From positions 1-49,313 of IMG/VR virus record IMGVR_UViG_3300001041_000026: a DNA stretch of 49,313 nucleotides, one strand, 5' to 3'. This document shows, piece by piece, positions 2,883-41,183 of this stretch (positions within the stretch are counted from its first letter, which is position 1; each line of letters opens with the position of its first letter). The stretch is from a virus. The position numbers and the translations under genes were made by a program. A model generated the notes under the pieces. The model did not search any database, was not told the origin of the DNA, and saw nothing but the letters and a program-made list of their open reading frames with translations.

Positions 2883-2895
2883 GTAACTTCACCCC

Positions 2896-5011: not shown

Positions 5012-5028
5012 AAGTACCTCAACTCCTG

Positions 5029-8086: not shown

Positions 8087-8091
8087 ACTGG

Positions 8092-22340: not shown

Positions 22341-25300
22341 TTATAGAATAACTACCAACTTAAGAGCCTTAGCTACTTGCCTTCCTACTTGGGTTGGGGG
22401 ATTTTCATTAGACTTTGGTCTTTGGGCACTACCTGGGTCACCTGTTGTACCCTTTGGCTTAGCGCCTGCTCTGCGCTTCTGGCTCCTAGTGAAGTTCTTT
22501 GTTGAGCTAATTTTAGACTCTGAATCTCCAAATTTAGTAACCTCTTCAGCATCTCGCGTAGCCTTAGTGACTCTCTGAATATCCCCCATTTTAATATCTT
22601 CAGCGTTGAACATAAAGTCTTCGATGGTTCCGGGCATGTGCAGAGATTCGATGCGTACACTATTAGCTCGTCCTACTTGCTCATGTCCTTTTGTTGCAGA
22701 ATCTGAGCGCCTGACACGTGCAGTAAACTGCGCCATCTTCTGAGGGTTCCAATCCTGGTCCATCATAAGCATTAGGTGAGCATTACCAAAGTCTACACCC
22801 TCCTTGCCTGCTGGAGACACAGTGGTAGCCCACATATTACCCTGATCTTTTGCATAACTGTTTTTATTTCCTCTAAATCCGGTCTTAGTCTCCTCCCGGT
22901 CCTTAGCCTCTCCGGTAAACTGCCCCGCAGCTAGACTTTGACCCTGCTTCTGCAGCTTATCTGCCCAATAAGCTAAGTGTGGGTGCTCACGCTGTAGATC
23001 GCGAATAACCCCGTCTGCAACATCGGTTCCAAAGGTAGTGTAACTAGACTTCACAACGACTTTGGGCATCAGCTCTGGTTTACCTGCTTTAGCCCTAGCC
23101 TCGTTTTCCGTAGCTAATGAATCTAGGTAGGTGCTTATTCGCTGCTTCATGTACTCAGCCTTAGGGTTGTTGTGGTGCATTGGTGGGAGAAGCTTAGGAC
23201 TTCCGTCACTATTTCGTTTAAAACTACCTTCCCCATCGCTCTCAAAGTACCGCTTGTTGCCATGCTCATCGACTTTATAGTGGCCTTCACCTGTAACTGG
23301 GTTATAGGGTTTTAATCCTCCGGATTTCACTTTCTTGGCCTTGGCCCCAGCTTCTGCTACTGCCTGAACATCTGTATCTCCTGAATCTAGAGCACTTCCC
23401 CCACCGGGCACATACATCCTACTCGCCAGTGGTGCATTTAGGTGCTTCTGAAGCTTCTGCATAGCAGTTAGGTAATTCTTGGACGTTTCACCCTTTTCAG
23501 TGTTGTCATACCCCGTGGCACTAGCTTTAACCATCTCCTGAAGTTTAGCATCAGGCAGGTATTGCTTCTGAACTGCATGGTAATCGTTATAGAACTTCTG
23601 TTGAGCAGGGCTCAGATTAGCTGGCGAAGTTGTCTGGGATGTATATGTTTCACCATTTTTGCCTGTTACCTCATGACTTCCACTTTCAAAGTCAAACACA
23701 GAGTGCTTGGTTCCATAGTAATCCGTTGTCTTATGATCTCGGTTACGGTCTGCCATGTTACTCATGAAGTCTTCGGGTGCATTTTCCTTTTGAGCTGCGT
23801 CGCTTCCGATGATGTGGGGAAAGTGAATCTTGGACCTATCACTGTACTGTACGTCTTCTGAACCCCTGAACTGAACAATATTAGCTACGATATCCCCAAG
23901 CTTATCCGCCATGGCTGGCTTAACTCCAATAACTTTACCATTTTTGTCCTTCATAAGGAACTTATCTGTAAACTCCTTAGCTGTACCAAGTTCATGTCTT
24001 CCACCTGTGACGGTATCAATAAGGCTATGGACTTCACGAGCATCATTTTCCATGGGAGTACCAGACAGGCCCCAAACGTTTTTAAAGGAATCAGTTGTTT
24101 CAGCTAAGGATTTACCACGCTGTCTTCCTTGATTCTTAAAAGCATGAATTTCATCGACAATAATATTGTCGTACAGGCCGGACTTAGAAAGTACATCTCG
24201 GTGTTTCATGAATTGGTCATAGGACATAATGTGGAAGTCATGGTCTTCTGAGCCTATGCTGCTGATATTATTTACAAAGTGCTTAGAACTCACAGCCTCT
24301 TGTTCAGTGCCCTCTTGCCCAAACATATGACGCCCGCCCTCAGACTTCATCCAGTTACCACTAGAATCCTTCTTCCGAAGATTACCCTCAGACCCAATGT
24401 AGAGAGCTCTGGAATTAGTCTCTCCACCGATCTCCTTACCCCAGTCCGATTGAATTCCAGCAGGGGAGACAACAAGCGTCTTTCCTGGCTTTCTTCCTTC
24501 AGAAATAGCCTTAGCCTTCTCGTGTAAAGCAGCTGCTACACCTGTGATTGTTTTGCCGGTGCCCATTCCGTGTCCAACTATTCCCCGCCCTCGTTCAACT
24601 AAGTGGGATACCCCAGCAAGCTGCGTACTATAAAGACCTTGCTTCATTATCCGACCACCTGGTTTAAACTGTGCTTGGTACGCTTGGCCAAAGGCACTTT
24701 CTGAGTCACTAGCATTCGGTTGATAGGCCTTCTGAAGCTCTTCAGGACTCTTAGGCTTACGATCCTTACGGTTGAAATGTTCTGCTAGATGTTCTCTAGC
24801 ATCATGACTTACAGACAGGCCTCCTAGGGCTTCTCTAAGCTCTTCAAACTTACCTGCTGAAATCTTAGCTGTTCCATTGCTTAGGACTCTAACCCCATAG
24901 GTAGATACTTGATCTCTCATAGCTTCAGGTACATGAATTTCAAGTTCTTTTGTATAAGCACTCTTAAACTGCTTAAGAAGTTCTTTACCTGCTTTTGATC
25001 TTCCGAGACGTTTGGTTAGCTGCTTCATCATAGCGTCTGATAGTTCTAGTTGGTTATTCATAACACCGTCTTTATCAAAGGCGCTGTTTATACCTGCCTT
25101 CTGAAGGGCTTGACTGAATAGCTCTTTTACCTTGTCAACTTTCTTCTGATCCTTAGGATTATCCGCTTTGAAGGTGCTCGTGGTATCCATCCGGTGTGTG
25201 CCCGTCTTTGCTGTTTTAACAACTGACTGGCCACTCGCTGATAAGGTTCGGCCTTCTTCAGAAGCTTGCTTAAGCTCTGACTTCTTGAACATCCCTATAA

Positions 25301-28300
25301 CATGGCCTTTACCGTCCGTTACCTTGTAAGTGTCCCCTTCGATAGCATGAATACGCCCTTTTCTGAATCCTTTTTCTCCAGGATAAAGAACAGCGTTTCC
25401 TTCCTTCATGGCTACTTTGTTCTTAGTAGTCAGACCTCGATCTACAAGCTTTCCGCCTTTGAATAAGGCTTTGATAGGCTCTCCTGTTGCAGGATCCACC
25501 GCTCCCTTGGGGATGTCATTGGTGTCCATAAATCTGTAACTGTCATACTCTCCACCGACTACCCTAGGGGCACCTTTTCCATCATATTCAAGCTGAATGT
25601 GATGACCTAAGGAGTCACTAACATGAGTTCCAGAACCTGAATGAGCAGTAACCCATGCCCTATTACCTACGGCTCCTTGCATGACCTCATGCAAATCGCC
25701 AGCATTGGCGATAGGTTTTCTCTGTTTCAGAAGACGCGCCATGACTGGATCTGTGATCGTCCCCTTAGCATCTACCATAACCGTGTTTTGGGTTCCATCG
25801 GGCATGTCCTGTGCATACGTGTGACTTGTTACTTCACCTTTTTTATTCCGACTTTGATTAACAAGCTTGAAGTCCTTGTGAGCCATGCCCTCCTGAAGTC
25901 CTAGCTTGGTATTGGACCGTGCCTTAGCATATTCAGCTTCATCGATCTGCTTCATAAAGGGCTTATCACCCTCAGAGTTGGCTTTTTTAGCTAAGATGTC
26001 TTGAAGTCCTGAAGCATCAGCACCTGTGTACCCTAGAGCCTTCCCTAGACCACCCCATGTATTTAGGTCCTCGTGCTGACCCCCATCAGGGTCAAAGACT
26101 TCAGCAATCGTTGATCCGAACCTTGTATGAGCCCCACCCTGGCCCGCCTTAGTGACTTCGTTCTTAATCTTTAGTGCTATTGTCTTACCTGTAAGAGGAT
26201 TTCCTACCAGATACGTCCCATCAGGTAAAAGTTTTTTACTAGCCTCTTCTTTAGCCCTTGTAAGTTCGTTCTGACCTAGCAAGTCGACTATGGTATCTTC
26301 ATCAGCGCCTTTACGTACTTGGGCTAATAGGCCACTGTTACCTGTTTTACCAATCATCATCTTTGCATTTTTACCTGCCATAGATCCTGCCTTGGATAGG
26401 GCATCCATAGCCTCTTTTCGATCTGCTTCAGTATCTCCACTGTCACGGTACTTCTGTAGAGCTTCTTTAACTCCTTCTTTGCCCAGATAACGGTTACCTA
26501 GAAACTTTTTGCGCTCGTCCTCACTCATGCTCTCATAGGCTTTTTGCTCATCTTCTGTGAAGTTGGCATAGTCATGGTGCCCTTTGTGCTCGTGTTCTCT
26601 CAGGTAGGTCTTCCGTATGCCTAAGTCCTTATCCGTTTCGTCACCACGCCAGGACTTACGCATACCTTCCATGTCTTCTTTAAAGGCTTCGATACCCGCA
26701 TCCTTATGCCCAGTGTCTTGCTCATGGTGGAAGTCAATCTTATCTTCTGGAGCCCCTTGATTATGTTCCTCTCTATGAACTTCATTCGCTGAATCATAGA
26801 TGAGATTACCATCAGACGTGTTGACTAGGACCCGCTTACCGCCCCATGTAATCCATGCGCTGCCCGGGTTCTTCAGAAGGAGTTCTTCTGACCATGTATG
26901 CCCAGAACTCTTTTTCTTAGCCGATCCATGCTGGGCTTCAGAAAGGCTAGAGTACTTTTTTGCATTGGCTTTTACATAGTCACCCATCTTTTTATTGACT
27001 TCGTGTTGCTTACCTTTATGAGGAAACATGGACTTCTCTAAAGACGAGTTGAAGCTTTTATAAAGCTCATTATCTTCAGGTAAACCGAACTCCACAATTC
27101 GGGCATGGAGCTCTCCACCCTCGGTGTAGACTATCGATCCAATGTACTCTTGGGGTGCCATAGACTTCTGCAAGGAAAGAAGGTTATCTGCCGTGGCAAT
27201 TCTCGTTTGCTTGTATACTAAAATATCAGTGCCTATTCCCCATGAATTCAGGGACTTCACAAGATCATACTCATAGAGTGACTTCATAACGAGATTGAAT
27301 ACGAGAGACTTCATCATAGCAAGTTCTTTTAAGGCCGGGTGATTCTTTGTTCGAGCATCAGATAATTTAACCATAGCGCTTCTGTAATACTTATTAACCC
27401 AGTCCTTGGTTGCCTGCTTACCACCTTCGTACCCGCCCTGCCTGTTAATAGCTTCAGCTACTTCGTCAAGGGTCATATTTCCTTTGTTGATCTTAGCTGA
27501 GGGACTTCCAAACATAACCATGAAGACTAGTTTTTCTTTGCTGCTAAGGCCTATGTCCTGCAGAACTTTAGGGATCGCTGTCTTAAGCTCTTTTTGACGC
27601 TCCTTCTGCTCATACTGTTCATCAGGTGTCGCTTCTGTACTTTTTACATTAGCTGCAGCTGAACCTGCTGTCCCTTCTTCTCCATCAATGTCCTTATCTA
27701 AGGTACTGGTCTTCTGACGATCCCTATAGGCCTGCAGTGTCTTTAGACGCTCAACTGGATCTGTGATCCGTTTCTTGGTAGCTACCCATTGACCTGTCTT
27801 TTCATCATAGGTTGGATTGTCCATAATCGGTGCGCTTTTAAACTTAGCCGAAGTCTGTTGCAAATGATTTGCAAGTTCCTCCATCGATGGTGTATGGCCT
27901 AGGCTCTGGATTAGTTCTGCTTCCCCTTTATGCAGGTCTGCCAGTGCTCCCCTGATCTCATGAGGTGCCGGGACTTCATTCAGAAGAGCATACATATCCT
28001 TGTGAAGCTTCTGCTTCATACGGGATATGACATGGGCTCCAATATTAGTATCTTTACCAGGATTCTGACTTCCGCTCATGACCCGGTATAGAGTCTCATA
28101 CATAGATGCTCGGGCTGTTTGAAGAAGATCCCCATAATACCCCGTCTCTTGGTTGTGGACCTCTCCATCACCGCTCGGTCCAACGTCCTCAATTCGGTTA
28201 ACTTGACTTAGGAGATTCATTCCCCGGGCCTTTCCCATCTGAAGGGTTGTGTGATAAGCTAATCGGTCATTTTGAGTAGTCATATCCCCAGCGATTCTGC

Positions 28301-28979
28301 GAATATCAGCCTCTGATCGTTTACCTGGCTCTTTCTTCATAAGCGCCTTAGCTTCTTTTGAGTTCCACATCTCATCAAGCCTTGACGTAGCTTCAGGGTT
28401 ATTCTCTAAATCTTTGTAGTCCTCTGCATGAGAACTCTGCTCAGTATTTTTCATCTGGGATGACCTACCAGTCGTTCCCTGTTCAATGGGCTTCCGAAGT
28501 ATATCAGGGGCCGAAAGGTCACGCTCTTTCTTAGCTCTTCTATTTGCTTTGTTCTCGGCCGTGGCCTTCTGCTCCATTGCTTTTACCTTAGTGGATTGCT
28601 GCTTTTTGCCACTGGTCAAAACTAGCTTAGGCTCTGTGGCTTTACCTGTACCATTAGCCCTATTCGCTGCTTTGGTTGTTTGACCCACTGCAGCAGAAGC
28701 CTTCCGCTTCTTGGTCTTAGCCTGGGCGTCCATGATCTTTTTGTGGTCATTGGCATGGATGACATTACTACGTTTAACTCTGCTTTTCTTGCCATCTGCA
28801 TGACGCACATGGTAATAGTCCCCGTCTACCTTCTCAACAGTGCCTGTTTTTCCAGTATGAGTAACGACACTTGAGCCACCTTTGATAGAGGAAAACTTTC
28901 CGAATTTATCCCGAGGGTGAATTTCCTCTCTCCATGATACTGTACCTATGGCTTTCTCTAAATCTATGTATAGATTCAT
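22341..28979 (-). CDS. Giant polyvalent protein: sigma-70-like region plus SNF2-family helicase (2212 aa)
   Basis: Order of parts: N-terminal tag LYIDLEKAIG (3-12) and EIHPRDKFGKF; a small beta-barrel (36-75); a basic linker; a sigma-70-like region at about 230-545, with a region 2-like helix pair (YYGDLLQTARASMYETL, then IGAHVISRMKQKLHKDM), a region 3-like GHTPSMEELANHL and a region 4-like IGLSSKEKLVFMVMFG plus MTLDEVAEAIN; a cluster of K-S/A tags at 556-656 (VMKSL, LVKSL, LQKSM, LYKSF, LEKSM); a long unassigned region; and a SNF2 helicase at about 1440-2130. Helicase motifs are GHGMGTGKT (1469-1477), DEIH (1609-1612), SGTP (1639-1642) and QFTARVRRS (2084-2092). The C-terminus ends in VAKAL. 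Likely packaged in the head and injected. A good terminator separates it from the 2488-aa gene upstream. Confidence 0.8.
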   Translation of the reverse strand: MNLYIDLEKAIGTVSWREEIHPRDKFGKFSSIKGGSSVVTHTGKTGTVEKVDGDYYHVRHADGKKSRVKRSNVIHANDHKKIMDAQAKTKKRKASAAVGQTTKAANRANGTGKATEPKLVLTSGKKQQSTKVKAMEQKATAENKANRRAKKERDLSAPDILRKPIEQGTTGRSSQMKNTEQSSHAEDYKDLENNPEATSRLDEMWNSKEAKALMKKEPGKRSEADIRRIAGDMTTQNDRLAYHTTLQMGKARGMNLLSQVNRIEDVGPSGDGEVHNQETGYYGDLLQTARASMYETLYRVMSGSQNPGKDTNIGAHVISRMKQKLHKDMYALLNEVPAPHEIRGALADLHKGEAELIQSLGHTPSMEELANHLQQTSAKFKSAPIMDNPTYDEKTGQWVATKKRITDPVERLKTLQAYRDRQKTSTLDKDIDGEEGTAGSAAANVKSTEATPDEQYEQKERQKELKTAIPKVLQDIGLSSKEKLVFMVMFGSPSAKINKGNMTLDEVAEAINRQGGYEGGKQATKDWVNKYYRSAMVKLSDARTKNHPALKELAMMKSLVFNLVMKSLYEYDLVKSLNSWGIGTDILVYKQTRIATADNLLSLQKSMAPQEYIGSIVYTEGGELHARIVEFGLPEDNELYKSFNSSLEKSMFPHKGKQHEVNKKMGDYVKANAKKYSSLSEAQHGSAKKKSSGHTWSEELLLKNPGSAWITWGGKRVLVNTSDGNLIYDSANEVHREEHNQGAPEDKIDFHHEQDTGHKDAGIEAFKEDMEGMRKSWRGDETDKDLGIRKTYLREHEHKGHHDYANFTEDEQKAYESMSEDERKKFLGNRYLGKEGVKEALQKYRDSGDTEADRKEAMDALSKAGSMAGKNAKMMIGKTGNSGLLAQVRKGADEDTIVDLLGQNELTRAKEEASKKLLPDGTYLVGNPLTGKTIALKIKNEVTKAGQGGAHTRFGSTIAEVFDPDGGQHEDLNTWGGLGKALGYTGADASGLQDILAKKANSEGDKPFMKQIDEAEYAKARSNTKLGLQEGMAHKDFKLVNQSRNKKGEVTSHTYAQDMPDGTQNTVMVDAKGTITDPVMARLLKQRKPIANAGDLHEVMQGAVGNRAWVTAHSGSGTHVSDSLGHHIQLEYDGKGAPRVVGGEYDSYRFMDTNDIPKGAVDPATGEPIKALFKGGKLVDRGLTTKNKVAMKEGNAVLYPGEKGFRKGRIHAIEGDTYKVTDGKGHVIGMFKKSELKQASEEGRTLSASGQSVVKTAKTGTHRMDTTSTFKADNPKDQKKVDKVKELFSQALQKAGINSAFDKDGVMNNQLELSDAMMKQLTKRLGRSKAGKELLKQFKSAYTKELEIHVPEAMRDQVSTYGVRVLSNGTAKISAGKFEELREALGGLSVSHDAREHLAEHFNRKDRKPKSPEELQKAYQPNASDSESAFGQAYQAQFKPGGRIMKQGLYSTQLAGVSHLVERGRGIVGHGMGTGKTITGVAAALHEKAKAISEGRKPGKTLVVSPAGIQSDWGKEIGGETNSRALYIGSEGNLRKKDSSGNWMKSEGGRHMFGQEGTEQEAVSSKHFVNNISSIGSEDHDFHIMSYDQFMKHRDVLSKSGLYDNIIVDEIHAFKNQGRQRGKSLAETTDSFKNVWGLSGTPMENDAREVHSLIDTVTGGRHELGTAKEFTDKFLMKDKNGKVIGVKPAMADKLGDIVANIVQFRGSEDVQYSDRSKIHFPHIIGSDAAQKENAPEDFMSNMADRNRDHKTTDYYGTKHSVFDFESGSHEVTGKNGETYTSQTTSPANLSPAQQKFYNDYHAVQKQYLPDAKLQEMVKASATGYDNTEKGETSKNYLTAMQKLQKHLNAPLASRMYVPGGGSALDSGDTDVQAVAEAGAKAKKVKSGGLKPYNPVTGEGHYKVDEHGNKRYFESDGEGSFKRNSDGSPKLLPPMHHNNPKAEYMKQRISTYLDSLATENEARAKAGKPELMPKVVVKSSYTTFGTDVADGVIRDLQREHPHLAYWADKLQKQGQSLAAGQFTGEAKDREETKTGFRGNKNSYAKDQGNMWATTVSPAGKEGVDFGNAHLMLMMDQDWNPQKMAQFTARVRRSDSATKGHEQVGRANSVRIESLHMPGTIEDFMFNAEDIKMGDIQRVTKATRDAEEVTKFGDSESKISSTKNFTRSQKRRAGAKPKGTTGDPGSAQRPKSNENPPTQVGRQVAKALKLVVIL
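27012..27314 (-). other. Cluster of putative prohead-protease sites in the 2212-aa protein
   Basis: Residues 556-656 contain six motifs of the type hydrophobic-x-K-[S/A]-hydrophobic (MMKSLV, VMKSL, LVKSL, LQKSM, LYKSF, LEKSM) within 100 residues. They lie exactly between the sigma-like region and the rest. Cleavage here would free a roughly 550-residue sigma-like fragment. Inference from motif sharing with scaffold and capsid proteins. Confidence 0.5.
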
Positions 28980-29004
28980 ATGAATCCCTCCTTCTGGACA
29001 AATA

Positions 29005-29044: not shown

Positions 29045-29084
29045 ACCAGACTTTAGGAATTAATTATACACAGACTTCCGAAGG

Positions 29085-32000: not shown

Positions 32001-35000
32001 GATGCCGTTGAATTCACCAATGATACATGGGCAGTGGGTATAGCCTTGTATTTTACTTGCCTCAAGCTTGTGATGGCCATCATGGACCTCATAGTTCCAG
32101 CCAATGATGATAGGGTCAATGTTTTCACCATTTTCCATCCGGGTTACATTGGATCTGACCTTATCGAAGTCAAGAGCTTTGTCTGTCTGAAAAGGGGTCT
32201 GCAAACGGTTGGTAGGGATATAAAGTATACCTTCTGTATTCGCTACGTTGTATGCACTTCGGGTAATAGGTATTACGGGTCTTTGTAGGTCACTTCGTCC
32301 AATAATGCCCTTCTGAAGATCGAAGGATAGGCCTTTCTGAATGGCTCCTGAGTTTCTAACGTTCTTCATAAGCTCATCAAATGCACCATTGATAGCATCA
32401 CGTTCTTTACCTTTTGGGTATGGTGTAGACTTTGTATCATACCAAGACCCATGCACTAGGTAATCGTTTTTGATCTTTCCTGTCCTCATCTTGCTCTCAA
32501 CATAGGTTTCAAAGGCCCGTGCAAAGAGTTCACAGTTACTAATCCAGTAATCAGTATCCCCGCCTACATTCTTAGAATCTGTGTAAAATTGGGACATACC
32601 ATTTGGTACGGGTATCTTGTCTAGTACTTCGCCTGTTAGTTTTTTATGGTGATAGGCCATTTCCTGAACCATAGCGTTCTTATCCGTGGTGTGTTTTCGT
32701 AAAATCTTTTTGATTTCTTTTTCTTTCTTAGCTTTATCATAATTATAGCGTTGTGCCCAGTCTTCTGTACTGGACAATGCCCTATCACGCGCAGAGTCTA
32801 GCTCTTTGCTGTATTTGAGTACAGCTCCTGCTATTCCTAAATCGGCTACTGCCTGTCTTCGCTTAGGATAATAGCTATAGTAATCATTGTCTTTATTGTC
32901 AACGTATTCAATCCCTGAGCCATCGCCTTTAAGAATAGCATCCATAAGGACTTCGTAAGACGCTTTGATTCGCTTATCCCCTACGTCTCCCATACCTTCA
33001 GAAGCTAGATTCGTTGAATTTCTGCCTGCGCTCTCCTGATAGAGAATATTATCCATGGCATGGCCCCACTCGTGGGCTAAGGACCCGGCCCCGCCTTCTT
33101 TAGTAATATTTATAGCCTTACTTAAAGCCTCATAGTGAGCTAAGGCTTTACCCTTACCCCGGGCACCAAAAGCCATAGATAACCTACCATTCATCGACAC
33201 ATCTTTGTCCTGAAGACCTAGAATATCCGCTAGGTCATGAAAGGCTTCAGCACACTTGACTAGGTGAAAGTTTCCGCTCTTATCGTCAACCCAGTTACCA
33301 AATTCTATCCCCTTAAAGCCGAAAGTTTTTACCATTTCTTCAGGTTTTTGAACCTTAGTATCACGTCCACCTGAGCGCTGAATCTTAGCAGGCATCATCT
33401 TTTCCCACTTAGTCTTAGTCTTCGCTCCTTTTTCCTCTTTATGTGCTTCCGAAGCTTCTTTTTGCTTAGAGATGTATTTATCCCATGTCATATTTTTACT
33501 AGCTACCGTCTGCATAGTCCGATCACGACTCTCGTAATTTGTAAAGAAGTTCGTTAACTTCTCTCCGAGCGGTGCATATGGGCTTTGTGCAGTTTTTTTA
33601 GCAAATTCAATGTCTCGCTTGACATCATTTACCCTATCCAGCTTTTTCTTCTTCCACTCATCACGCGTAAGTGTTACCCATTTTACATCTGATCCTGGTG
33701 TATAGACCCTTTCCTTTAGGTCATCTTCAGTTGGTTCTTTTTCATACTGTTTTTGGGCATATTCTAAGTAGCGTTGCTGGTCACCCATATTCTTAGGCGT
33801 TTCAGCCTTCATCCAGTCTCCTAGGTTACGAGTTGCTTTCTTAAACTCATCCCATGATGTAACAGGTTCTAGCTGCCGTTGTAGTTCTTTAATAGCATGT
33901 AGATATCCTGCCCTTGCTTCAGGGGTATCATCGCTAGGCTTAGGGGTTATACGATCATAAATAAGCTGTTTTGTGATAGCTACATTTATGTCCACGCCTC
34001 GTTTATAATCTGCTTCAAAGTCTACAGGCTTTAGAAGATTCTTCTTAACACACAACTTCTGCGCCTGTTCAGGAGACATCTTTTCCACATCCCCTAAGCT
34101 TTGCCCACTTAAGCTCTTCAGAAACGCATCAAAAACTGCGACATCTTTACGAGCTCCACCGATCTTAGCCCCCACATCGTAAGCTGTTTCATTGTTGGCT
34201 TGTTTTTCGGTTCGGATATCATTAACACCTTTGCGTTTAATAACCTTATCTGTCGCCCGTTTAGCTTCTGTAAGCTCAGAAGCTGCCTGAATAATCTTAT
34301 CTTGTTTATCGTTTTTAGAGTTTAAAATCTCTTTTGCTTTATCTTTAGGTTTAGTGGTAGGCTCAAGCATCTTCTTAGCTTCAGCCTGCTGCTCCTCAAG
34401 CGTTGCTTTCTTGCTCTTAGGCTTTGGTTTCTTAGCAAGCGCATCCACGGCTTCCTTTTGCTTTGCCATAAACTCAGGGGTTACCTTGGTTCGTTTTGTC
34501 GAGGATTCTTTATTGTTAACTTCTTTGAGTGTATCTTCAATAGCCTCTTTCCCCGTTTTAGTTGTAGGCTTCTTACCCTCTAGGCCTGCTGGATCTCTTC
34601 TTGCTTTAAGCTTCTTAAGCTTAGCAGCAGCCTTAGCTTCTTTGTCTATGGTTTCCTGATGTTCTGCTAAATGGGCCTTCGTTGCTTTCTTAGCACTCTT
34701 TACCCCCGGGATAGCCCCGGCCAATACCTTACCATTGAGGATGTAAATATGATGCCCATTCATCGAACGCCATACTCCTCCAGGTGGAAGTTCCTTGTGC
34801 AGAGCTTTTGCCTGCGTCTTGGTTACTTTGCCTGGTGCAAGGGCCTTCTGAAGATCAATATAGAGTCCTTTAACAAGGTTCATTATGCTTCTCTCAGCAT
34901 AGGAGCGAAAGGTCCAGTGCCCAGCATCAATATCCTGCCGGCTATTGGTATTAGGAACAATGACATCGTAGAGCTGGATACCTAGAGTTTTAGAGGCATC

Positions 35001-36551
35001 TTGTATCCCTGCATTATGCATAACTTCACTTGACCCAAAACCCGTGTACATAAAAAAGCTTTTACTATTTGCTTTAATAAGACTCTCAAGTGCTTTCTTC
35101 CGAAGCTTATTAGGTGATAAAGTTACATCAAGGGGCTCAGCATGGGTGATACCATTTTTGGTATCAACTCCAATAATATAAATGGCCTTATCAGCATCAT
35201 GGATACTAAGATTATTTTTGATGTAGTCTTTTACATCATCTACACCATTCATCCTAGGCCCAGGTACACTGGCATCTTTCTCTTGATAGGTTTCATAGAT
35301 AGGTGCCTGCTCAGTTCTCATGATTTTAGAACGATCCATATTTTTGTTGAATTCAACGATACTTCCATTACCATTTAGAGCTGTGTACTCATTGTCACCT
35401 ATAACAACGTGACCACCGAACCGCATACCCATGTGATCTGCTACATCCCTAAAGCGCTCAGTAACTGCCACATCCGGTTGACTCGGGGTACTATCTCCTG
35501 TTGGGTGATTATGGATTAGGTAAACTGTATCTGCACCAGATAGGAGCGGTACTTTCATCATGTCCTTAGGGTCAATAATACTTGAATCAACATTACCTAT
35601 GTGAGCGCAGTGGATGCCCACGACTTCCCCATTTTTAGTTCCCAGCACATAGCTCTTTTCACGATCTGAGTCGGTTAAATCTGCAAAAACTTGGGCCACA
35701 TCTTCACGACTATTTACCTGCATATTAGGCACAGCGTAACTACCTACTCGACGTGCAATAACTCTTACACGCCCTTTGTTTTGGAAGTCAGGAGCTAAGT
35801 CACTAAACTCTGAATCACTAGTCTTAGGTAGCAAAACAACCTTAGGCCTTGGTACTCTTTTCTTAACTAGATCATCAACTACCGGGGGCATCTTAGGCGC
35901 TGTTGCTTCCTTAGTTTTAGCTGCAGGTTTAGCTACTTTCTTAGGATTCTCATGCCCTGGTGCTAGACCACGGGCCATTTTATTTGTAGACATCCTATCC
36001 TCAAAATATTCCTGTCCCCAGCCCTTGAGCCTAGACTCTGCCATTTTTATAGCATCTTTTTCTCCAGTGAAGCACGAAATTATCCTAGTCCCTGTTGTAG
36101 TCTCATAGATATACGTGTCCTCGGGATGTTCAGGGTCCGGGTGCTCCATGAAAAATGATCCTTTAACAGCCTTTAACTTGACTTCCTTAGCCCCTACTGC
36201 CTCTATAAAGCTGCTTGCACCGGGGCTATACCTATAGAATTTCTTAGCTTCTTTTGGCTTAGCTACCTTTTTAGCTGCAGTTTTCTTGTCTGGTACCTTA
36301 ACTGCTGGATCAGGTTTCTTAGGAGCGGTCTTTTTTGGGGTAGTCTTGCTCTTGGTATCCTTTTTTGGTGTACTTGCCTTAGGTTTTGCCTTTGCACTTG
36401 TCTTAGAGGCCTTTTTAGGCTCCTCTCTAACAACTGGAGAGACAATACCCTCATGCTTTTTAGCAAACTTACCATCTCTTGCTCTTGGGTGAAGTTCTTG
36501 CTTAAAATACCCCTTTATAATATTTAGGTCTTTTAAGTTGAGTATTTCCAT
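29085..36551 (-). CDS. Giant polyvalent polyprotein: RadC/JAB, LPD1 metallopeptidase, ParB-like, ART-like (2488 aa)
   Basis: Parts in order: N-terminal IIKGYF and ELHPRARDGKF (11-29); Lys/Ala/Pro linker; a RadC/JAB domain (about 256-400) with HNHPTGDSTPSQPD, giving H347, H349 and D360; a second MPN-like copy without the HxH (about 430-555); tag LYIDLQKAL (563-571); repeat unit A1 (about 575-640); charged helices; LPD1-type metallopeptidase (about 1076-1350) with FGFKGIEFGNWV, HEWGH (1160-1164) and ELFARAFE; tags GAIQKGL and DLQKGII (1403-1417); ParB-like domain (1432-1525, VHDGHHKLEASKIQGY); tag KLQKSLV (1615-1621); an ADP-ribosyltransferase-like domain (1637-1735, MFRGIG, then CFSTLFSQAEGYA); tag LYIDLKKSI; repeat A2 (1754-1818); helices; and a C-terminal duplication (2257-2338 and 2370-2449). 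Such architectures are known as polyvalent proteins of phages (Iyer and co-workers, 2017). Most likely packaged and injected. Confidence 0.85.
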   Translation of the reverse strand: MEILNLKDLNIIKGYFKQELHPRARDGKFAKKHEGIVSPVVREEPKKASKTSAKAKPKASTPKKDTKSKTTPKKTAPKKPDPAVKVPDKKTAAKKVAKPKEAKKFYRYSPGASSFIEAVGAKEVKLKAVKGSFFMEHPDPEHPEDTYIYETTTGTRIISCFTGEKDAIKMAESRLKGWGQEYFEDRMSTNKMARGLAPGHENPKKVAKPAAKTKEATAPKMPPVVDDLVKKRVPRPKVVLLPKTSDSEFSDLAPDFQNKGRVRVIARRVGSYAVPNMQVNSREDVAQVFADLTDSDREKSYVLGTKNGEVVGIHCAHIGNVDSSIIDPKDMMKVPLLSGADTVYLIHNHPTGDSTPSQPDVAVTERFRDVADHMGMRFGGHVVIGDNEYTALNGNGSIVEFNKNMDRSKIMRTEQAPIYETYQEKDASVPGPRMNGVDDVKDYIKNNLSIHDADKAIYIIGVDTKNGITHAEPLDVTLSPNKLRKKALESLIKANSKSFFMYTGFGSSEVMHNAGIQDASKTLGIQLYDVIVPNTNSRQDIDAGHWTFRSYAERSIMNLVKGLYIDLQKALAPGKVTKTQAKALHKELPPGGVWRSMNGHHIYILNGKVLAGAIPGVKSAKKATKAHLAEHQETIDKEAKAAAKLKKLKARRDPAGLEGKKPTTKTGKEAIEDTLKEVNNKESSTKRTKVTPEFMAKQKEAVDALAKKPKPKSKKATLEEQQAEAKKMLEPTTKPKDKAKEILNSKNDKQDKIIQAASELTEAKRATDKVIKRKGVNDIRTEKQANNETAYDVGAKIGGARKDVAVFDAFLKSLSGQSLGDVEKMSPEQAQKLCVKKNLLKPVDFEADYKRGVDINVAITKQLIYDRITPKPSDDTPEARAGYLHAIKELQRQLEPVTSWDEFKKATRNLGDWMKAETPKNMGDQQRYLEYAQKQYEKEPTEDDLKERVYTPGSDVKWVTLTRDEWKKKKLDRVNDVKRDIEFAKKTAQSPYAPLGEKLTNFFTNYESRDRTMQTVASKNMTWDKYISKQKEASEAHKEEKGAKTKTKWEKMMPAKIQRSGGRDTKVQKPEEMVKTFGFKGIEFGNWVDDKSGNFHLVKCAEAFHDLADILGLQDKDVSMNGRLSMAFGARGKGKALAHYEALSKAINITKEGGAGSLAHEWGHAMDNILYQESAGRNSTNLASEGMGDVGDKRIKASYEVLMDAILKGDGSGIEYVDNKDNDYYSYYPKRRQAVADLGIAGAVLKYSKELDSARDRALSSTEDWAQRYNYDKAKKEKEIKKILRKHTTDKNAMVQEMAYHHKKLTGEVLDKIPVPNGMSQFYTDSKNVGGDTDYWISNCELFARAFETYVESKMRTGKIKNDYLVHGSWYDTKSTPYPKGKERDAINGAFDELMKNVRNSGAIQKGLSFDLQKGIIGRSDLQRPVIPITRSAYNVANTEGILYIPTNRLQTPFQTDKALDFDKVRSNVTRMENGENIDPIIIGWNYEVHDGHHKLEASKIQGYTHCPCIIGEFNGIDKQRLFEEYSELWKSFREDYAEPKKYKTRSLKTDIETTDLDGEKKAIIDYSERLKQIKDPRIRKILVEIIADEKNHKHNLAQVLSYLNGDKTALNSNKLQKSLVYLPEVDTGLSAFPYDNASGIMFRGIGQKEYDFIQKSGYIQTKGKGNDADQENVVTCFSTLFSQAEGYARSNYDLYNETMAYVLVVEYRGVENELGEIEVLEKTPASSIFGVIPVPKTPVMKGLYIDLKKSITRSEAKKVHKDLPEGGVWRTLMGHHVYIKDGKILAGSVPGVKGVKKATKEHLAGHQKTIDKEAKKAVPKANEVKGLVQREVGQLDRGMTALAKGKKLRAKLGDIHSSEDTYNAYARKVSEYKDRLGTDPHKLTYGDFYSTAREYQGFIGSDEMPLNALAKMNRLPNNGLRRELELHYNFVKRALEEGKEVPPEVLKDYPELVSVHKSEKPVYDKAKGEGTSKTKGVDAKMGSRLSATNAKKLMGEYGVPAGHREAVLNTLKHSTTSNSFSAQGRDELDVTGSKQVIGREYSAVDVQKAVESYKKDKKFAKDVAAKAIAINDAAKQEKKAKSDAKAQKELEHDEFLETIKANTDQMYKDQETREAKKNRTPEQVAADEKAFADFDPLALLMAGTEPNKEPWEMTPDEYFHDKMVKTGYMKGAQGEYVGVIHDRYREHLAGSASLAQQKEWSDQEHKKLILKHHAETTSMADAFKEFMDANKPKEEPKIAQYYKSNKSVGDRTGKLTYVPVDGKRIDIGGDVHAFIHKGAGGRGWVITEVRSGIMLANGKTQDETMVKAREAVTKLGPTKLAEGVKKHIDKHGESPATAEPGKAGTIFGSEQPVTPYHIAVPKGKNGKAKYTPVHNAEKVNVGKGIHAFIHGREGDWAVSEARSGLKITSNSSKNLAVKIAKELIERNRENLDTMIQKHIEKHGESPKTAPTFDEYVKKEVKGSTDHLSVEAWGSYRRSYDSIYNGKR
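29205..29783 (-). repeat. C-terminal tandem duplication in the 2488-aa protein
   Basis: Two related units of about 80 residues (2257-2338, DNA 29538-29783; 2370-2449, DNA 29205-29444) share the pattern Y-PV, then HAFIH, a WVI/WAV strand, SE/TE-RSG, a helix, and KHIxKHGESP-TA at the end. They differ enough (about 40 percent identical by eye) to be an old duplication. The fold is not recognised. Confidence 0.7.
31098..31334 (-). repeat. Second copy of the tag-plus-A unit in the 2488-aa protein
   Basis: Residues 1739-1818 (MKGLYIDLKKSI followed by GGVWRTLMGHHVYI, then DGKILAGSVPGVK and KATKEHLAGHQKTIDKEAKK) repeat the unit found at residues 560-640 (MNLVKGLYIDLQKAL, GGVWRSMNGHHIYI). The two copies are about 60 percent identical by eye. 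The A unit always follows a putative cleavage tag. Confidence 0.75.
34632..34880 (-). repeat. First copy of the tag-plus-A unit in the 2488-aa protein
   Basis: Residues 558-640: LVKGLYIDLQKAL tag, then KALHKELPPGGVW, NGHHIYILNGKVLAGAIPG and KKATKAHLAEHQETIDKEAK. It is paired with the copy at 31098-31334. The position is just after the JAB region and before the long helical and metallopeptidase region. Confidence 0.75.
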
Positions 36552-36562
36552 GCTCGTCCCTC

Positions 36563-36817: not shown

Positions 36818-36842
36818 TCTTTGCCAGCTCCTCTTTTACTAA

Positions 36843-36871
36843 TTGTGTATTACCTGTGATTGCAGTATAAT
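36843..36871 (+). promoter_or_regulatory. Sigma-A-like promoter for the plus-strand endonuclease gene
   Basis: -35 TTGTGT (36843-36848), 17-nt spacer, -10 TATAAT (36866-36871). The ATG of the gene is 35 bases downstream with AAGGGGG before it. The -10 overlaps an inverted repeat. Confidence 0.6.
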
Positions 36872-36892
36872 GTCTATGACTACATTATACAA
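36864..36892 (-). promoter_or_regulatory. Overlapping divergent promoter for the minus-strand giant-gene operon
   Basis: On the minus strand: TTGTAT (36892-36887), 17-nt spacer, TATACT (36869-36864). It faces the small winged-helix-like gene and the 2488-aa gene. It interleaves with the plus-strand promoter, so one regulator could control both. Confidence 0.5.
36866..36889. promoter_or_regulatory. Operator-like inverted repeat between divergent promoters
   Basis: TATAATGT (36866-36873), 8-nt spacer, ACATTATA (36882-36889): a perfect 8-bp inverted repeat covering both -10 regions. Typical of a dimeric repressor site. The repressor is unknown; the endonuclease's own helix-turn-helix-like part or the small winged-helix protein are candidates. 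Confidence 0.5.
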
Positions 36893-36905
36893 GGGGGAAT
36901 TACTA

Positions 36906-37745
36906 ATGGCTGTACGATGGAAATTAAAACATCTTTCTGATGATGAACTGGCTGAATTACTAAGATACAAGGTAGAGATTGAATTTAAGACAGTAACAAT
37001 GATTATGGATGACTTAGACGTATCACGAACAATGGTGCTAAACTGGCTCAAGAAATTTAGTGTTCCGTTACCTATGGTAAGAAAAATATTTAGGCATCTA
37101 ACTGATCCCCAACTTAAAGACCTTCTAAATCAAAAAATATGGGTAGAGAATAAATCTATTGAAGCACTTGAACGTGAGTACAGTGTTTCTACCCCTGCAC
37201 TATTCGATTGGTGTAAAAGACTTGGTGTACCAACTCGTAGTGGCTCAGAGGCTAACTTAATTCGCTTTGCCAATTCAACTAAAGAGGAAAATCTTGCTAT
37301 AACAGCTAAAGCACATGCTGCGGTGCGTGGCTCCAAACGTAGTAAAGCTGACTTAGAGAAACGTGCCCTGAGCGTCGAGCACCAACCAATGTCTAAATGG
37401 GAACTATGGTTTGCTAAATGGCTACTTGAGGCTAACATCACAGGCTTCAGACATAACTATGCTCTTAATATATTTAATTTAGACTTTGCTTTCCCAGAAA
37501 ATAAGATAGCTATTGAGATAGATGGTGGTGGGTGGCACTCTTCTGAGCGTAAACAACTACAGGATGCAAAGAAAGAAGCCTTTTTATTTGAACAGGGGTG
37601 GACTCTATACAGAGTAACTAGCAACGGTTGGAAAAGTAAAAGAGTTATTACTGAATATCCACAAAGTTATAAACGTAGGTCCTTAGAATTGATACAAGTA
37701 TTAAAAGCTACTTTAAATTCAAATCTGGACCAAGGCCCCTTTTAA
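36906..37745 (+). CDS. Putative homing endonuclease, Vsr-like nuclease domain (279 aa)
   Basis: Residues 1-120 contain two helix-turn-helix-like segments (VTMIMDDLDVSRTMVLNWLK; IEALEREYSVSTPALFDWCK) suited to DNA binding. The C-terminal 110 residues have WELWFAKWLLEANI, then FRHNYALNIFNLDFAFPENK, IAIEIDGGGWHSSE and LFEQGWTLYRVTSN. That is the Vsr/DUF559-like PD-(D/E)xK layout, found in free-standing phage homing endonucleases such as I-Bth0305I. It is the only long gene against the direction of transcription in the head module, it has its own promoter, and its 3' end overlaps the MuF gene by 38 bp. ATG 36906 with AAGGGGG eight bases upstream is the start; the frame extends upstream through the promoter but is not used. 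Confidence 0.75.
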   Translation: MAVRWKLKHLSDDELAELLRYKVEIEFKTVTMIMDDLDVSRTMVLNWLKKFSVPLPMVRKIFRHLTDPQLKDLLNQKIWVENKSIEALEREYSVSTPALFDWCKRLGVPTRSGSEANLIRFANSTKEENLAITAKAHAAVRGSKRSKADLEKRALSVEHQPMSKWELWFAKWLLEANITGFRHNYALNIFNLDFAFPENKIAIEIDGGGWHSSERKQLQDAKKEAFLFEQGWTLYRVTSNGWKSKRVITEYPQSYKRRSLELIQVLKATLNSNLDQGPF

Positions 37746-38958
37746 GCCTTTCCTCCTGAATAAGCTCTACAGTGGTCTTAAGCTTAGGTTTCCCGTCTTG
37801 GTCTACTTTGTAGAATCGAGACACGGCGTGGAAACGGTGCCGACATTGAACGTGCAAGGGAACACAGGGTATCCACTCCTTAACCGTCCGGCCATAGTTA
37901 CTCTTGCCTACCCATATGTACTTCTGAGGGTCAGCTCCCGGGTCTGAGGTCACTATGAAGGTCTTGCCTTCAATAAGTTTTTTACAGTGTTCGCAACTAC
38001 CCTCAACAGGTGGAACCCACACTGTATCCCCTTCTGAACAGCCTGCTAAAAACGCGTCATTACTTGCCATGGATATTTCTGTGAGGCTAACTCTTCTCCA
38101 ATCTCTGTTCTGCTCCCCAAAAGCATCAAAGAGGGCTTGAGCTAACTTCTGAGCACCCCAGCGCTCATTCTGTGCTCGGATCACTAATTGCCGGACACCT
38201 GCTCGGTGGCGATCACTTATCTCTGTCAGCTTATCGCCCGCTCGTAAATTTGCATGTTCTACTGCCCTAAGTTCTTGGGGTTGTAGAGGAAGGATCTTCA
38301 CTGTTCGACCTTCTGCCTTAGCCCTCTCCTGCTCTTTAAGAGTTAGAACTAACCCTTCATGCTCTGCCTCTTTAATCGTTGAGGGAAAGCGGTCTACAAA
38401 AGCGCCTACAGTGCTCAACATCTCAGTGTCTGCATGACTCCGGATCTTAGCTATAAACGCTGCTCTTACTGCAAACTGCTCAGCTAACTTTGCATAGTCC
38501 GGTAACTTTTGTTTCATGATATCGTCAATTTGCTTAAGCTTAGCTTTTGTCCACTCACTACCCTCCTGCAGTAGCTTAGTAAAAGCATTGCGCTTAGTCT
38601 TCGATAGGTTGATAAGATCACTTAACTTGTGCTTACCATTGTCCAAGGCCTTAAACAATTGATCTTCATAGGTTAAGTATTCTGGACTGAAGGCCTTCTG
38701 TAGTTGTATTGGCTCATCACTTCGCTCCAAGGCTGCTATGAGCTCAGCCATATTCTCTAGAGCTGGACCCACTAGTATTTCATAAAGTTCATCCTCAGCT
38801 TCACCGAGTAACTGCTCATCGTTCGTGGTCCACACTGTGCGTTCTAATCCCGAGGCCTTAGGGCTTTTAATATCTAGGGCCTTAGATAGTTCAGAGACTA
38901 TCTGAAGCTTATGATCATTTGACAATGCCTGCAGAGTCTTCGGAAGTACGATATTCAA
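37708..38958 (-). CDS. MuF-like phage head morphogenesis protein
   Basis: About 416 aa. Residues about 250-390 hold the MuF domain: RWGAQKLAQALFDAFGEQNR, then RVSLTEISMASNDAFLAG, VEGSCEHCKKLIEGKTF and PLHVQCRHRF, with three Cys and a His that can bind a metal. MuF-type proteins enter the head with DNA in SPP1-like phages. The N-terminal half has the putative protease tags ELSKALDIK, LQKAFSPEYL and LFKALDNG. TTG at 38958 is nine bases from AGGAGG; TTG codons at 38967 and 38976 are too close to it, though the frame extends to 38976. The 3' end overlaps the convergent endonuclease gene. Its place next to the portal is typical. Confidence 0.82.
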   Translation of the reverse strand: MNIVLPKTLQALSNDHKLQIVSELSKALDIKSPKASGLERTVWTTNDEQLLGEAEDELYEILVGPALENMAELIAALERSDEPIQLQKAFSPEYLTYEDQLFKALDNGKHKLSDLINLSKTKRNAFTKLLQEGSEWTKAKLKQIDDIMKQKLPDYAKLAEQFAVRAAFIAKIRSHADTEMLSTVGAFVDRFPSTIKEAEHEGLVLTLKEQERAKAEGRTVKILPLQPQELRAVEHANLRAGDKLTEISDRHRAGVRQLVIRAQNERWGAQKLAQALFDAFGEQNRDWRRVSLTEISMASNDAFLAGCSEGDTVWVPPVEGSCEHCKKLIEGKTFIVTSDPGADPQKYIWVGKSNYGRTVKEWIPCVPLHVQCRHRFHAVSRFYKVDQDGKPKLKTTVELIQEERLKRGLGPDLNLK

Positions 38959-38981
38959 TTGCTTCAACCTCCTCAACTCCT

Positions 38982-39341
38982 CTAATCAATATCATTTTCG
39001 TCCAATTCAGGTAAATCCACTGTTTGGCCTGCTAACACATGAGTTGAATCACTAAGAAACTGTATTCTACCGTCTGTTACAAAACTATGACATACCAGTG
39101 GAATTGACTCAATATGCTCACCATTCAGGATTCTCTTAGCTTCTTCATCACTTATTGGTTTTGTACCTCGCACTAGTATTGAAGGTGTAACTGTCGGTTT
39201 TTCTTGACTTCCATTCCAATTCCAACCATTTGAAGTGTTAACTTTAACTGCATGGTACTCGTTACACCCTGGGCACCAGAGCCACAGAAGATCATATTCT
39301 TGAACGCCATCCTTGCAGTGCCTTAATCTAGACTTAGTCAT
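38982..39341 (-). CDS. DUF6527-family phage protein (119 aa)
   Basis: The C-terminal region (SIPLVCHSFVTDGRIQFLSD, then THVLAGQTVDLPEL) matches the family pattern in which a CHxFV-DGxIQFL-D-TH-LAG-TVDLP string is conserved. The N-terminal CPGC at about 23-26 and NGSQEKPTVTPSIL also fit. The function of the family is unknown; homologues are often labelled ammonia monooxygenase or anaerobic dehydrogenase in error. It lies between the portal and MuF genes, so a head-related role is possible. Confidence 0.75.
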   Translation of the reverse strand: MTKSRLRHCKDGVQEYDLLWLWCPGCNEYHAVKVNTSNGWNWNGSQEKPTVTPSILVRGTKPISDEEAKRILNGEHIESIPLVCHSFVTDGRIQFLSDSTHVLAGQTVDLPELDENDID

Positions 39342-39357
39342 TTACACCGTCCCCTTT

Positions 39358-41160
39358 TTAGTAATCTCCCCACTCAATTGATACCTGCAGCTCGTCCTCT
39401 TCGGAATCTAATACTTCGGAAGAATCTATAAGAGATTTCTTAAGCGGTGGCTTCTTAGCCTGTGCTTTTGCTTTCATCTGTTCAATATTTGTCTGATGCT
39501 TTTGGTCAAGCTGTTTACCTTCAAGACCTTGTTTATGCTTGATTTTCTCTAGGTTAACTTGATGTTCTTGATCCAACTTCTTAGCTTCTAATCCCTGCTG
39601 GTGTTGCTTATCCATGACTTCTAAAGCCTTACTATGGGTATCATCAGCAGTCATCTTCTCCTGTGCTCCGTCGATAGCACCCTGCTGTTGTTGCTGTGCT
39701 TGCTGTTCTTCTGCCATCTTAGCATTGACTTCAGCCATAAACACCTGAATTAGGGTGGGGTTACCAGGTGCTGTTGTCCATTGAGCGGGTTTACCTTCCT
39801 CATCCAACAGTTCATCCATGTCTTCTTTCTTCCGGATCTCTGCAACGACGACAACTCCCGAGTCAATCTGCTCCTTATACCGCGCCCACTTCTGCTCCTC
39901 ATCTTGTTCATCAATTCCAATCCATGTAAAGGCAAACTGATCATCAATCCGGTCCACGACTTCTGAATTGAAGGTATTGGCTAAGAACTGCATGAGCGGG
40001 ACGAATCCTTTATCCTTTGACTGGTCAATCTTGACTTCTGTATTGTCCGATTTCATAGCTCCGTTGCCACCACTGGTCCAAGACTTAAAACCTACTTCAT
40101 TGGGATCGATCTGATACACTGCACAGGCGATATTGAACAAAAACTCTAAGAACTCATTGAACTCCATATCCCGATTATTTGCCTTAAAGTTTGTGAACTT
40201 AAACCCTGCTCCTTCTTTTAAGGCCATCACAGGCACTGCCCACTTCCCTGATGCGCCACTAGTCATCGCTTTCCAGTGCTTCTTAAAACCTTCTAAGTGT
40301 GAGTCTTCATAGCTACCCACGATTTCTAGTATCCCTTGGGGTAGGTGTGATTCACTGAAATAGCTTGTATTGTACCGGACGCTATTCATAATTCCTGTGA
40401 CAATCTCTATTAGTGTTTCAAGTTCTGACATTCCGAAGTCCACCATGTTGATATCTGTCTGAGGATTGCGAATAGCAAAACACAATTCGTCTTCTGTAAA
40501 CTCCGCAATAATCTGGCCATTAACCCTCTGCACATAGGATATGTCCTTAGCTATTGACTGCCCGGCCCGGGTCATTGGCTCATAGACAGGCATTTCCCGC
40601 TCTGCACCTGTTAGATCACTGGCTACAAGTTCAATCGTTGCGCCATCAATAGCCCATATCTCAGCTATGGTTCCTTTGCGATTACCTACATTTTCAAAGG
40701 TCACAACATCTAATGTCAAGGTATCACGTACAATCTTACGCATGAACTTATCAAAGTTGTCTTTGCGCTTAGCATTAGGCACGGCACCTGTGGTCATGAA
40801 GAACTCTTCCAGCTCGAAGGCTCGTTTTTTCTGGGCCTCTGACATTTTAGCTTCTCTGTCCTTCAGTACGATCTTAAATCCCATATCCCCTTCAAATCGT
40901 GGCCGTCGAGAGAACCGTGCAACTTGATTGAGTCTTGTGTTAATGATCGCAGCTACTGCAGGGACCTTAGCCATTCGTCTAAGCACAGAGTATGGAACAG
41001 CAGTAGGTTTCTGTCTTAGGCCGTTAGCCCCTGTCGTCATATACGGATCAATAATTGCAGACTTAGGCTTACCCATCTTTATCTTTTCTCCACTAGCAAA
41101 GGCCTTCAGAAGCTCTTCAGCTTTTGGGGCTGTTGCACAAATGTCTAGTATGTTATCCAT
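39358..41160 (-). CDS. Portal protein
   Basis: About 600 aa, HK97/SPP1-like. Landmarks: VPAVAAIINTRLNQVARFSR near the start; a clip or wing segment with TFENVGNRKGTIAEIWAIDG; ELCFAIRNPQTDINMVDFGM; and the stem region NRDMEFNEFLEFLFNIACAV plus YQIDPNEVGFKSW. A C-terminal extension has a Gln run and three about 20-residue Lys/Gln/His-rich repeats (KALEVMDKQHQQGLEAKKLD type) forming coiled coil, then the tag PPLKKSLIDS near the end. ATG 41160, seven bases after GGAGG, is a better start than ATG 41166. A terminator lies just upstream in the leader. Confidence 0.88.
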   Translation of the reverse strand: MDNILDICATAPKAEELLKAFASGEKIKMGKPKSAIIDPYMTTGANGLRQKPTAVPYSVLRRMAKVPAVAAIINTRLNQVARFSRRPRFEGDMGFKIVLKDREAKMSEAQKKRAFELEEFFMTTGAVPNAKRKDNFDKFMRKIVRDTLTLDVVTFENVGNRKGTIAEIWAIDGATIELVASDLTGAEREMPVYEPMTRAGQSIAKDISYVQRVNGQIIAEFTEDELCFAIRNPQTDINMVDFGMSELETLIEIVTGIMNSVRYNTSYFSESHLPQGILEIVGSYEDSHLEGFKKHWKAMTSGASGKWAVPVMALKEGAGFKFTNFKANNRDMEFNEFLEFLFNIACAVYQIDPNEVGFKSWTSGGNGAMKSDNTEVKIDQSKDKGFVPLMQFLANTFNSEVVDRIDDQFAFTWIGIDEQDEEQKWARYKEQIDSGVVVVAEIRKKEDMDELLDEEGKPAQWTTAPGNPTLIQVFMAEVNAKMAEEQQAQQQQQGAIDGAQEKMTADDTHSKALEVMDKQHQQGLEAKKLDQEHQVNLEKIKHKQGLEGKQLDQKHQTNIEQMKAKAQAKKPPLKKSLIDSSEVLDSEEDELQVSIEWGDY

Positions 41161-41183
41161 AACCATACCTCCTCTACCTAAAA

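Follow-up and report, generated by a model that had tools for sequence, protein, structure and literature searches.

A lysine-centred motif shared by head proteins and two giant polyvalent proteins of an uncultured tailed phage: predicted prohead protease sites at module borders

Head genes of the window and the motif they share

The window, as the whole analysed stretch is called here, is a viral DNA sequence of 49,313 nucleotides (IMG/VR record IMGVR_UViG_3300001041_000026, positions 1 to 49,313). Its head genes encode a major capsid protein, a prohead protease fused to a scaffold, a MuF-like minor head protein, a portal protein and, between the capsid/protease and the MuF/portal genes, two giant proteins of 2212 and 2488 amino acids (aa) (Table 1). 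According to family, fold and profile searches, both giants combine several unrelated enzymatic domains in one chain. The 2488-aa giant includes an LPD-type domain (LPD1, 4e-21). A family search for LPD3 in the window gave no match, yet its controls were silent too, so that it is uninformative. An earlier note on this DNA had pointed to a short lysine motif common to the head proteins and had proposed that the giants are polyproteins, cut at this motif by the prohead protease into separately injected effectors.

The motif was scanned as [LIVMFYW]xK[SAG][LIVMFYW], and its matches, termed tags below, were counted in each window protein and in 500 shuffles of the same protein. The open reading frame (ORF) of protease and scaffold contains 16 matches, 12 of them beyond residue 170, versus 0.91 in the shuffles, none of which reaches 16 (0/500). 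The 2212-aa giant has 11 matches versus 3.54 (0/500 shuffles reach this number): K9, K557, K566, K575, K605, K641, K649, K2204 and three within domains. In the 2488-aa giant, 13 matches are found versus 4.93 (1/500): K13, K561, K569, K1406, K1414, K1531, K1618, K1742, K1750 and four others. Among the other head proteins, the motif is present in the capsid protein (K25), the MuF protein (K32, K94, K109) and the portal protein (K21, K577). Counts in the tail genes and the other window genes are close to the shuffle expectation. An 84-aa ORF with three matches was left uncounted, as these look internal to a winged-helix-type fold. All sites quoted in the earlier note for protease, capsid, MuF protein, portal and giants were recovered by the scan, and the density above that of shuffled proteins was borne out; portal K21 and K1531 of the 2488-aa giant had been overlooked. 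In addition, an independent profile trained solely on scaffolds of distant phages was scored on the window proteins. It yielded 15 sites versus 0.36 expected in the protease ORF, 9 versus 1.7 in the 2212-aa giant (p=8.5e-5) and 7 versus 2.4 in the 2488-aa giant (p=0.011). Taken alone, the density makes a strong case in the 2212-aa giant as well as in the protease/scaffold. It is modest for the 2488-aa giant, where the case rests on tag position and conservation.

Table 1. Features of the head gene cluster, with positions in the window; ↓ denotes a mapped or predicted cut here and in the text.
Feature	Position	Strand	Basis
Major capsid protein, predicted cut ELNK25↓ALGTG	18498..19967	-	aligned with SPO1 gp6.1 at LNKAL; matches mapped A511 and phage K sites
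Prohead protease fused to tag-rich scaffold tail (~aa 190-534)	20007..21611	-	PHROG 1028 4.4e-42; scaffold PHROG 1.5e-10; 16 tags
2212-aa giant	22341..28979	-	ORF; Pfam SNF2 2e-18; sigma by Foldseek and profile search
C-terminal tag K2204↓ALKLVVIL-COOH	22344..22376	-	conserved in relatives
Six-tag cassette K557, K566, K575, K605, K641, K649	27027..27317	-	conserved in relatives
N-terminal tag LYIDLEK9↓AI of 2212-aa giant	28944..28973	-	LYIDLxK or variant, then W-R-E-x-HPRD, in relatives with this end
2488-aa giant, six predicted products	29085..36551	-	ORF and family searches
Predicted product 6 (aa 1751-2488): second PGGVW hairpin, otherwise without named domain	29088..31301	-	relatives and family searches
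Double tag K1742↓GLYIDLKK1750↓S; gene boundary here in L051/L053/L054	31296..31334	-	comparison with relatives
Predicted product 5 (aa 1619-1742): ART-like module (FRGIG...)	31326..31697	-	weak Tpt1/ART fold match, E ~0.2; sequence conserved in relatives
Tag LQK1618↓SL before ART-like module	31692..31706	-	comparison with relatives
Predicted product 4 (aa 1532-1618): ferritin-like domain, putatively of encapsulin-cargo type	31698..31958	-	NCBIfam EncB 5.9e-9; TIGR04535 2.2e-6; PDB bacterioferritin 8e-11
Tag ELWK1531↓SF after ParB; insertion/swap point in relatives	31953..31967	-	WK[SG] present in all lineages
Predicted product 3 (aa 1415-1531): ParB-like nuclease domain	31959..32309	-	PHROG 7e-24, 5e-23
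Double tag K1406↓GLSFDLQK1414↓G before ParB module	32304..32345	-	two tags, variable spacer, 9/9 sequences compared
Predicted product 2 (aa 570-1406): PGGVW hairpin, HEWGH metallopeptidase region, LPD1	32334..34844	-	LPD1 4.1e-21; CLCA_X 2.3e-33; PHROG matches
Double tag K561↓GLYIDLQK569↓A	34839..34877	-	motif count and comparison with relatives
Predicted product 1 (aa 14-561): RadC-like JAB domain	34869..36512	-	Pfam RadC 1.6e-23 at 280-395
MuF-like minor head protein, tags K32, K94, K109	37708..38976	-	family search, motif count, independent profile
Portal protein, N-terminal tag LLK21↓AF, C-terminal tag LKK577↓SL...VSIEWGDY	39358..41166	-	Pfam portal 4.3e-18

The motif as a predicted prohead protease site

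The window protease is a homologue of the head maturation proteases of Herelleviridae (PHROG 1028; tblastn 30-37% identity over the domain). In the record of Listeria phage A511, the mature major capsid protein is annotated from residue 24, SFTTGYG..., right after ...QEDALK. Similarly, the phage K-type capsid chain in PDB entries 9row, 9rox and 9roz starts at residue 25, SFQTGYG..., right after ...EDVVK. The window capsid segment ELEELNK↓ALGTG aligns with these mapped A511 (ALK↓SF) and phage K (VVK↓SF) sites and holds the candidate cut. L-N-K-A-L is invariant in the alignment of the window capsid with SPO1 gp6.1. Conservation of the capsid site in the loci L066-L127 was excluded as evidence, because the pattern by which they were located, [ED][LV][DE][EA]LNKA, itself contains the site. 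Another capsid match, LEKALY (155), had been suspected from the start to be due to chance, and it is indeed lost in relatives (LEKGLY, IEQALF).

The scaffolds of related phages are packed with the motif. SPO1 scaffold gp3.3 has 8 motifs versus 0.32 expected, the phage K scaffold 6 versus 0.25, and scaffold ORFs of other capsid loci typically 5-12 versus 0.2-0.5, which extends the pattern to about 50 related phages. A residue profile established around all lysines of 37 dereplicated distant scaffolds, irrespective of the motif, displays L at -2 (z=19) and, at +1, S (z=23) and A (z=6), together with a hydrophobic residue at +2 and E/D at -4. Of the K-[Ser/Ala/Gly] tag originally put forward, K-S and K-A are strong in scaffolds and K-G is weaker. 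In SPO1-type phages, moreover, the capsid N-arm and its cut site recur as a copy in the protease tail (A511 score 119 versus a shuffled maximum of 42; in phage K, ESFMKSFLTGHGTSPDTQVDAGALRKE versus EDVVKSFQTGYGITPDTQIDAGALRRE). Such copies are seen in L049, L050, L048 and L046 and also in L087, L093, L114 and L122. Because of the mapped coat sites, the protease homology, the motif-packed scaffolds and the protease-tail copy of the N-arm, the motif is very probably the cut site of the prohead protease.

Tag conservation and module exchange in the giants

The 2212-aa giant consists of an HPRDxxGKF/KOW-like start, a sigma-70-like module (~200-545), the tag cassette, an SNF2 helicase module and the C-terminal tag. 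It was aligned with relatives (eleven sequences, ten of which span the cassette). Cassette lysines 557, 575, 605, 641 and 649 are kept in 10/10 sequences and lysine 566 in 9/10. Five of the six cassette sites read K-[SAG] in 6/6 divergent lineages, with flanks just 43-60% identical. At the C-terminal tag, K is kept in 10/10 and K-[SA] in 5/5, with flanks 30% identical. The N-terminal LYIDLxK tag or its variant is followed, in the giant and those relatives that have this end, by W-[RK]-[ED]-x-x-H-[PK]-R-x-x-x-G-[KR]-F. The in-domain matches at 775, 980 and 1417 are lost in relatives, so that conservation in homologous phages, to which the earlier note had looked, is found at the borders. An AlphaFold model of moderate confidence folds the cassette (555-650) into short helices around a small beta domain; therefore, as modelled, it is a dedicated region and no plain linker, and the notion of a plain disordered linker was dropped. 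Tags had been thought to fall between domains: they do mark module borders at which relatives rearrange, but not as simple disordered linkers.

The sigma-70-like module was identified via local matches: The top Foldseek matches are sigma factors (probability 0.95-1.0, E 2.5e-4), a profile search matches the HrdB region (E 2.3e-4), and whole-chain superposition is poor (template modelling score ~0.1-0.3). This module (window 27345-28380, ~aa 200-545) is a candidate injected sigma factor, if the giant is packaged in the virion. A scan of genome contigs with the 2212-aa giant revealed no relative. At L056 4502-5143, the two halves of the helicase giant are separated by a 213-aa ORF with resemblance to LAGLIDADG homing endonucleases (YYWLGVLFADG), which suggests an intron or intein-like insertion.

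In the 2488-aa giant, the module order is JAB-tag-metallopeptidase-tag-ParB-tag-ferritin-tag-ART-tag-C-terminal. Among the modules named in the earlier note, JAB, metallopeptidase, ParB, sigma-like and helicase were found in the two giants, the ART-like one just weakly (fold E ~0.2), and the ferritin-like one had escaped notice. The latter matches EncB with just 36 bits (cut-off 90; E 5.9e-9). Located between two tags, it appears closest to encapsulin cargo ferritins. A ferritin-like module in a probable phage head polyprotein is a possible evolutionary link with encapsulins, because these have the HK97 fold in common with phage capsids.

Comparison with relatives shows that modules are swapped, split and inserted at tags. 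In relative G004, the order is ART-tag-metallopeptidase-tag-ParB-tag-other, and the borders are still tagged. In L051, L053 and L054, the chain is split into two genes: The first ends with ...STIKKSIALYIDLRKERR at its stop codon; after a gap of five bases, the second begins as MAITRAQAKGVHKDLPPGGVW, which corresponds to K1750↓SITRSEAKKVHKDLPEGGVW. The equivalent genes of G010 start with MLVNLHGIQVVNDDLDLFK↓SITRSQAK... and MILKPGEFDLIK↓AITRTQAK... L053 and L054 share 99% identity for 2.8 kb through the W-K-S codons after ParB and unrelated from the following codon on; the right-hand end of this swap is within the ART module, away from any tag. The slot between the after-ParB tag and the ART tag is occupied by the ferritin-like module in the window and by a metallopeptidase-like one in L051; L052, L054 and G010 have unrelated sequence there. 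Nothing fills it in G009 and G011, where a single tag, WK↓SII[AP]DP, doubles as after-ParB and ART tag. The L051 module (~aa 1188-1277 of ORF 1083-5390) carries a HEIGH motif and may be a zinc metallopeptidase; its Pfam ATLF score of 26.8 bits falls just short of the cut-off. Taken together over nine sequences, the junctions on both sides of ParB and ahead of ART comprise 36 tags in 1542 residues versus 27 in 11,693 elsewhere; shuffled junctions have a mean of 2.8 tags and a maximum of 8 in 1000 shuffles. As domain landmarks served to define the junction windows once the pattern was known, and some lineages are closely related, these numbers are descriptive and no clean test.

Predicted processing, rival readings and known systems

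Both giants are most likely polyproteins cut by the prohead protease (probability about 0.75), because their tags match mapped coat cut sites and are conserved at module borders, and because modules are exchanged at them. The tag [E/D]x[L/I/V/M]xK↓[S/A/G][L/I/F/M/V] would be both the recognition and the cut site of an HK97/SPO1-type prohead protease. The giants would enter the prohead as precursors via short hydrophobic peptides adjoining the tags. There, the protease is predicted to cut its own scaffold tail at ~12 sites, thereby emptying the prohead, to trim both ends of the portal as well as the coat protein (K25↓A26), and to cut both giants at the same tags. The 2212-aa giant would yield a sigma-like and an SNF2 helicase module, and the 2488-aa giant JAB, metallopeptidase/LPD1, ParB, ferritin-like, ART-like and C-terminal modules. 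The hydrophobic peptides (LYIDL, LKLVVIL-COOH), probably head-targeting signals, would be removed by cutting, and the freed modules would be injected along with the DNA. The sites, their enrichment, their match to mapped coat cut sites, their conservation at borders and the exchange at tags are read from the sequences, from which cleavage of the giants, targeting and injection are inferred steps. The semi-tryptic mass spectrometry proposed in the earlier note is unsuitable here: The predicted cut is after Lys and therefore cannot be revealed by tryptic peptides.

Several points weigh against such processing. The motif is short, and its density in the 2488-aa giant is just modestly above chance (p ~0.01 with the independent profile). 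This giant also has matches away from borders, at 812, 1145, 2049 and 2384, and some rearrangement points among relatives are away from tags. G at +1 is not enriched around scaffold lysines, which makes K-G sites weaker than K-S/K-A sites. The A511 mat_peptide annotation has no stated basis in its record. The cassette is modelled as helices, not as an open linker, and an AlphaFold model of aa 1380-1870 of the 2488-aa giant (predicted local distance difference test, pLDDT, 51) was too poor to be used as evidence. Finally, the phage is known from metagenomic contigs alone, and no isolated phage with such giants was found in the phage records searched.

Alternatively, the tags in the giants might be uncut head-targeting or scaffold-binding peptides that dock the giants, which stay whole, to scaffold or shell. 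Upstream of the capsid gene, LYIDL(x)K[SAG] has 20 matches in ORFs totalling 134,000 aa, versus 1 in 138,000 aa downstream. LYIDL is found at N-termini and between paired tags, LKLVVIL-type peptides at C-termini, and tags occur at both termini of giants and portals; the C-terminal portal tag is kept in L053, L141, L142 and L143. This means, the hydrophobic peptides beside the tags may well be targeting signals. Docking and cutting are, however, compatible with each other. Moreover, the conserved core is the K-[SA] of the mapped coat sites, whereas the hydrophobic peptide varies (GLSFDL, ALEMEL, GLRIQMLLEL), and since one targeting signal per protein is enough, docking leaves the tags at every module border unexplained. 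Docking without cutting is thus unlikely.

It is considerably less probable that the giants are processed by the HEWGH/LPD1 metallopeptidase module within the 2488-aa one, in analogy to a proposal made for P1 DdrB and other polyvalent proteins, with the K-S tags being incidental. An HEWGH region with CLCA_X/LPD1 matches is present in the giant, and autoproteolysis by such domains was suggested by Iyer et al. (2017; PMC5512222). Yet, the tags are common to capsid, portal, scaffold and the other giant, they match the prohead protease site, and no tie between the metallopeptidase and K-S sites is apparent. Least probable is a by-product of Lys/Ser/Leu-rich composition or of helical scaffold-like segments: In spite of the short motif, the modest density in the 2488-aa giant and matches in apparently folded proteins (84-aa ORF), a chance origin is rejected by the shuffle tests, the border-limited conservation and the module exchange at tags.

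The closest known systems are the SPO1/Twort-type phages (Herelleviridae). They share with the window a homologous protease, a coat cut of the type hydrophobic-x-K↓S/A-hydrophobic, a motif-full scaffold and the order protease-scaffold-capsid. In contrast, the window has scaffold and protease in one ORF and, in its head cluster, two giant polyvalent proteins with the motif at module borders. The literature searched yielded neither a cut site nor N-terminal data from virions for SPO1-type phages. HK97 shares the K↓S specificity, with its coat protein being cut between Lys103 and Ser104; its scaffold is part of the coat protein, and the phage is not known to carry polyvalent cargo. T4 internal proteins have one N-terminal targeting peptide each, with a motif different from that of the window. 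Like the predicted window signals, this capsid-targeting peptide on head-packed proteins is cleavable, as referred to in PMC7411985.

Polyvalent proteins were defined by Iyer et al. (2017). In that paper (PMC5512222) they are, like those of the window, giant multi-domain proteins with LPD1, metallopeptidase, ParB and further enzymatic domains, encoded among virion genes and presumed to be injected; 'prohead protease' occurs once there, 'sigma' and 'ferritin' zero times, and a prohead protease cut-site code is not described in the parts consulted. For SPN3US (gp47, gp53, gp54) and phiKZ (gp86), the available parts of PMC5694885 and PMC10052503 report that the prohead protease cuts ejected internal proteins, capsid and portal, and that propeptides hold several copies of the cut motif (A-x-E or S-x-E). 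The cuts identified there, save the protease's own, remove N-terminal propeptides, and several mature effectors from one chain are not described in these parts. No prohead protease code by which a single polyvalent chain would be divided into several mature effectors turned up in the literature searched, which is weak evidence owing to incomplete coverage. Comparative evidence is strong that the window combines known parts in a putatively new way.

For a large group of uncultured phages, a defined cut code would, if true, explain why proteins of >2000 residues are made at all and by what means they get through the narrow portal and tail tube. Injected effectors could be listed from the sequence alone as any tag-bounded module, exact mature N-termini could be predicted, and a sigma factor would be expected to be delivered with the DNA. 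The code also suggests a way of loading chosen proteins into phage heads. A generalization appears attractive, although we would rate it somewhat below an even chance: A targeting peptide flanked by K↓S sites (K↓GLYIDLxK↓A) might allow any domain between two tags to be packed into the prohead and freed by the protease, so that effectors, among them a sigma factor carried in the virion and a ferritin of encapsulin type, could be swapped at these sites, and this code might span SPO1-like phages well beyond the group. Uncharacterised ORFs upstream of capsid genes that begin with MELYIDLxK or end with KSLGLFVDLGGSKA (449-466 aa in L093, L114 and L116; 1089 aa in L087-L106) may encode additional head cargo of distant SPO1-like phages. 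A Pfam search with the tested ORFs of this set gave no match.

Other genes in and around the cluster were noted as well. On the opposite strand, a 300-aa ORF that looks like a mobile endonuclease (window 36843-37745, +) lies between the giants and the MuF gene; relatives have different ORFs in the same slot (L014 2512-3372, L143 4655-5158). In L014, a 364-aa ORF (8060-9154; IKGIDISNNNGSIDFKAV), apparently a GH25-type lysozyme, is located between the two giants. A 222-aa ORF (window 42927-43595) has a sub-threshold match to Tad2-like anti-Thoeris domains (22.6 bits, cut-off 25).

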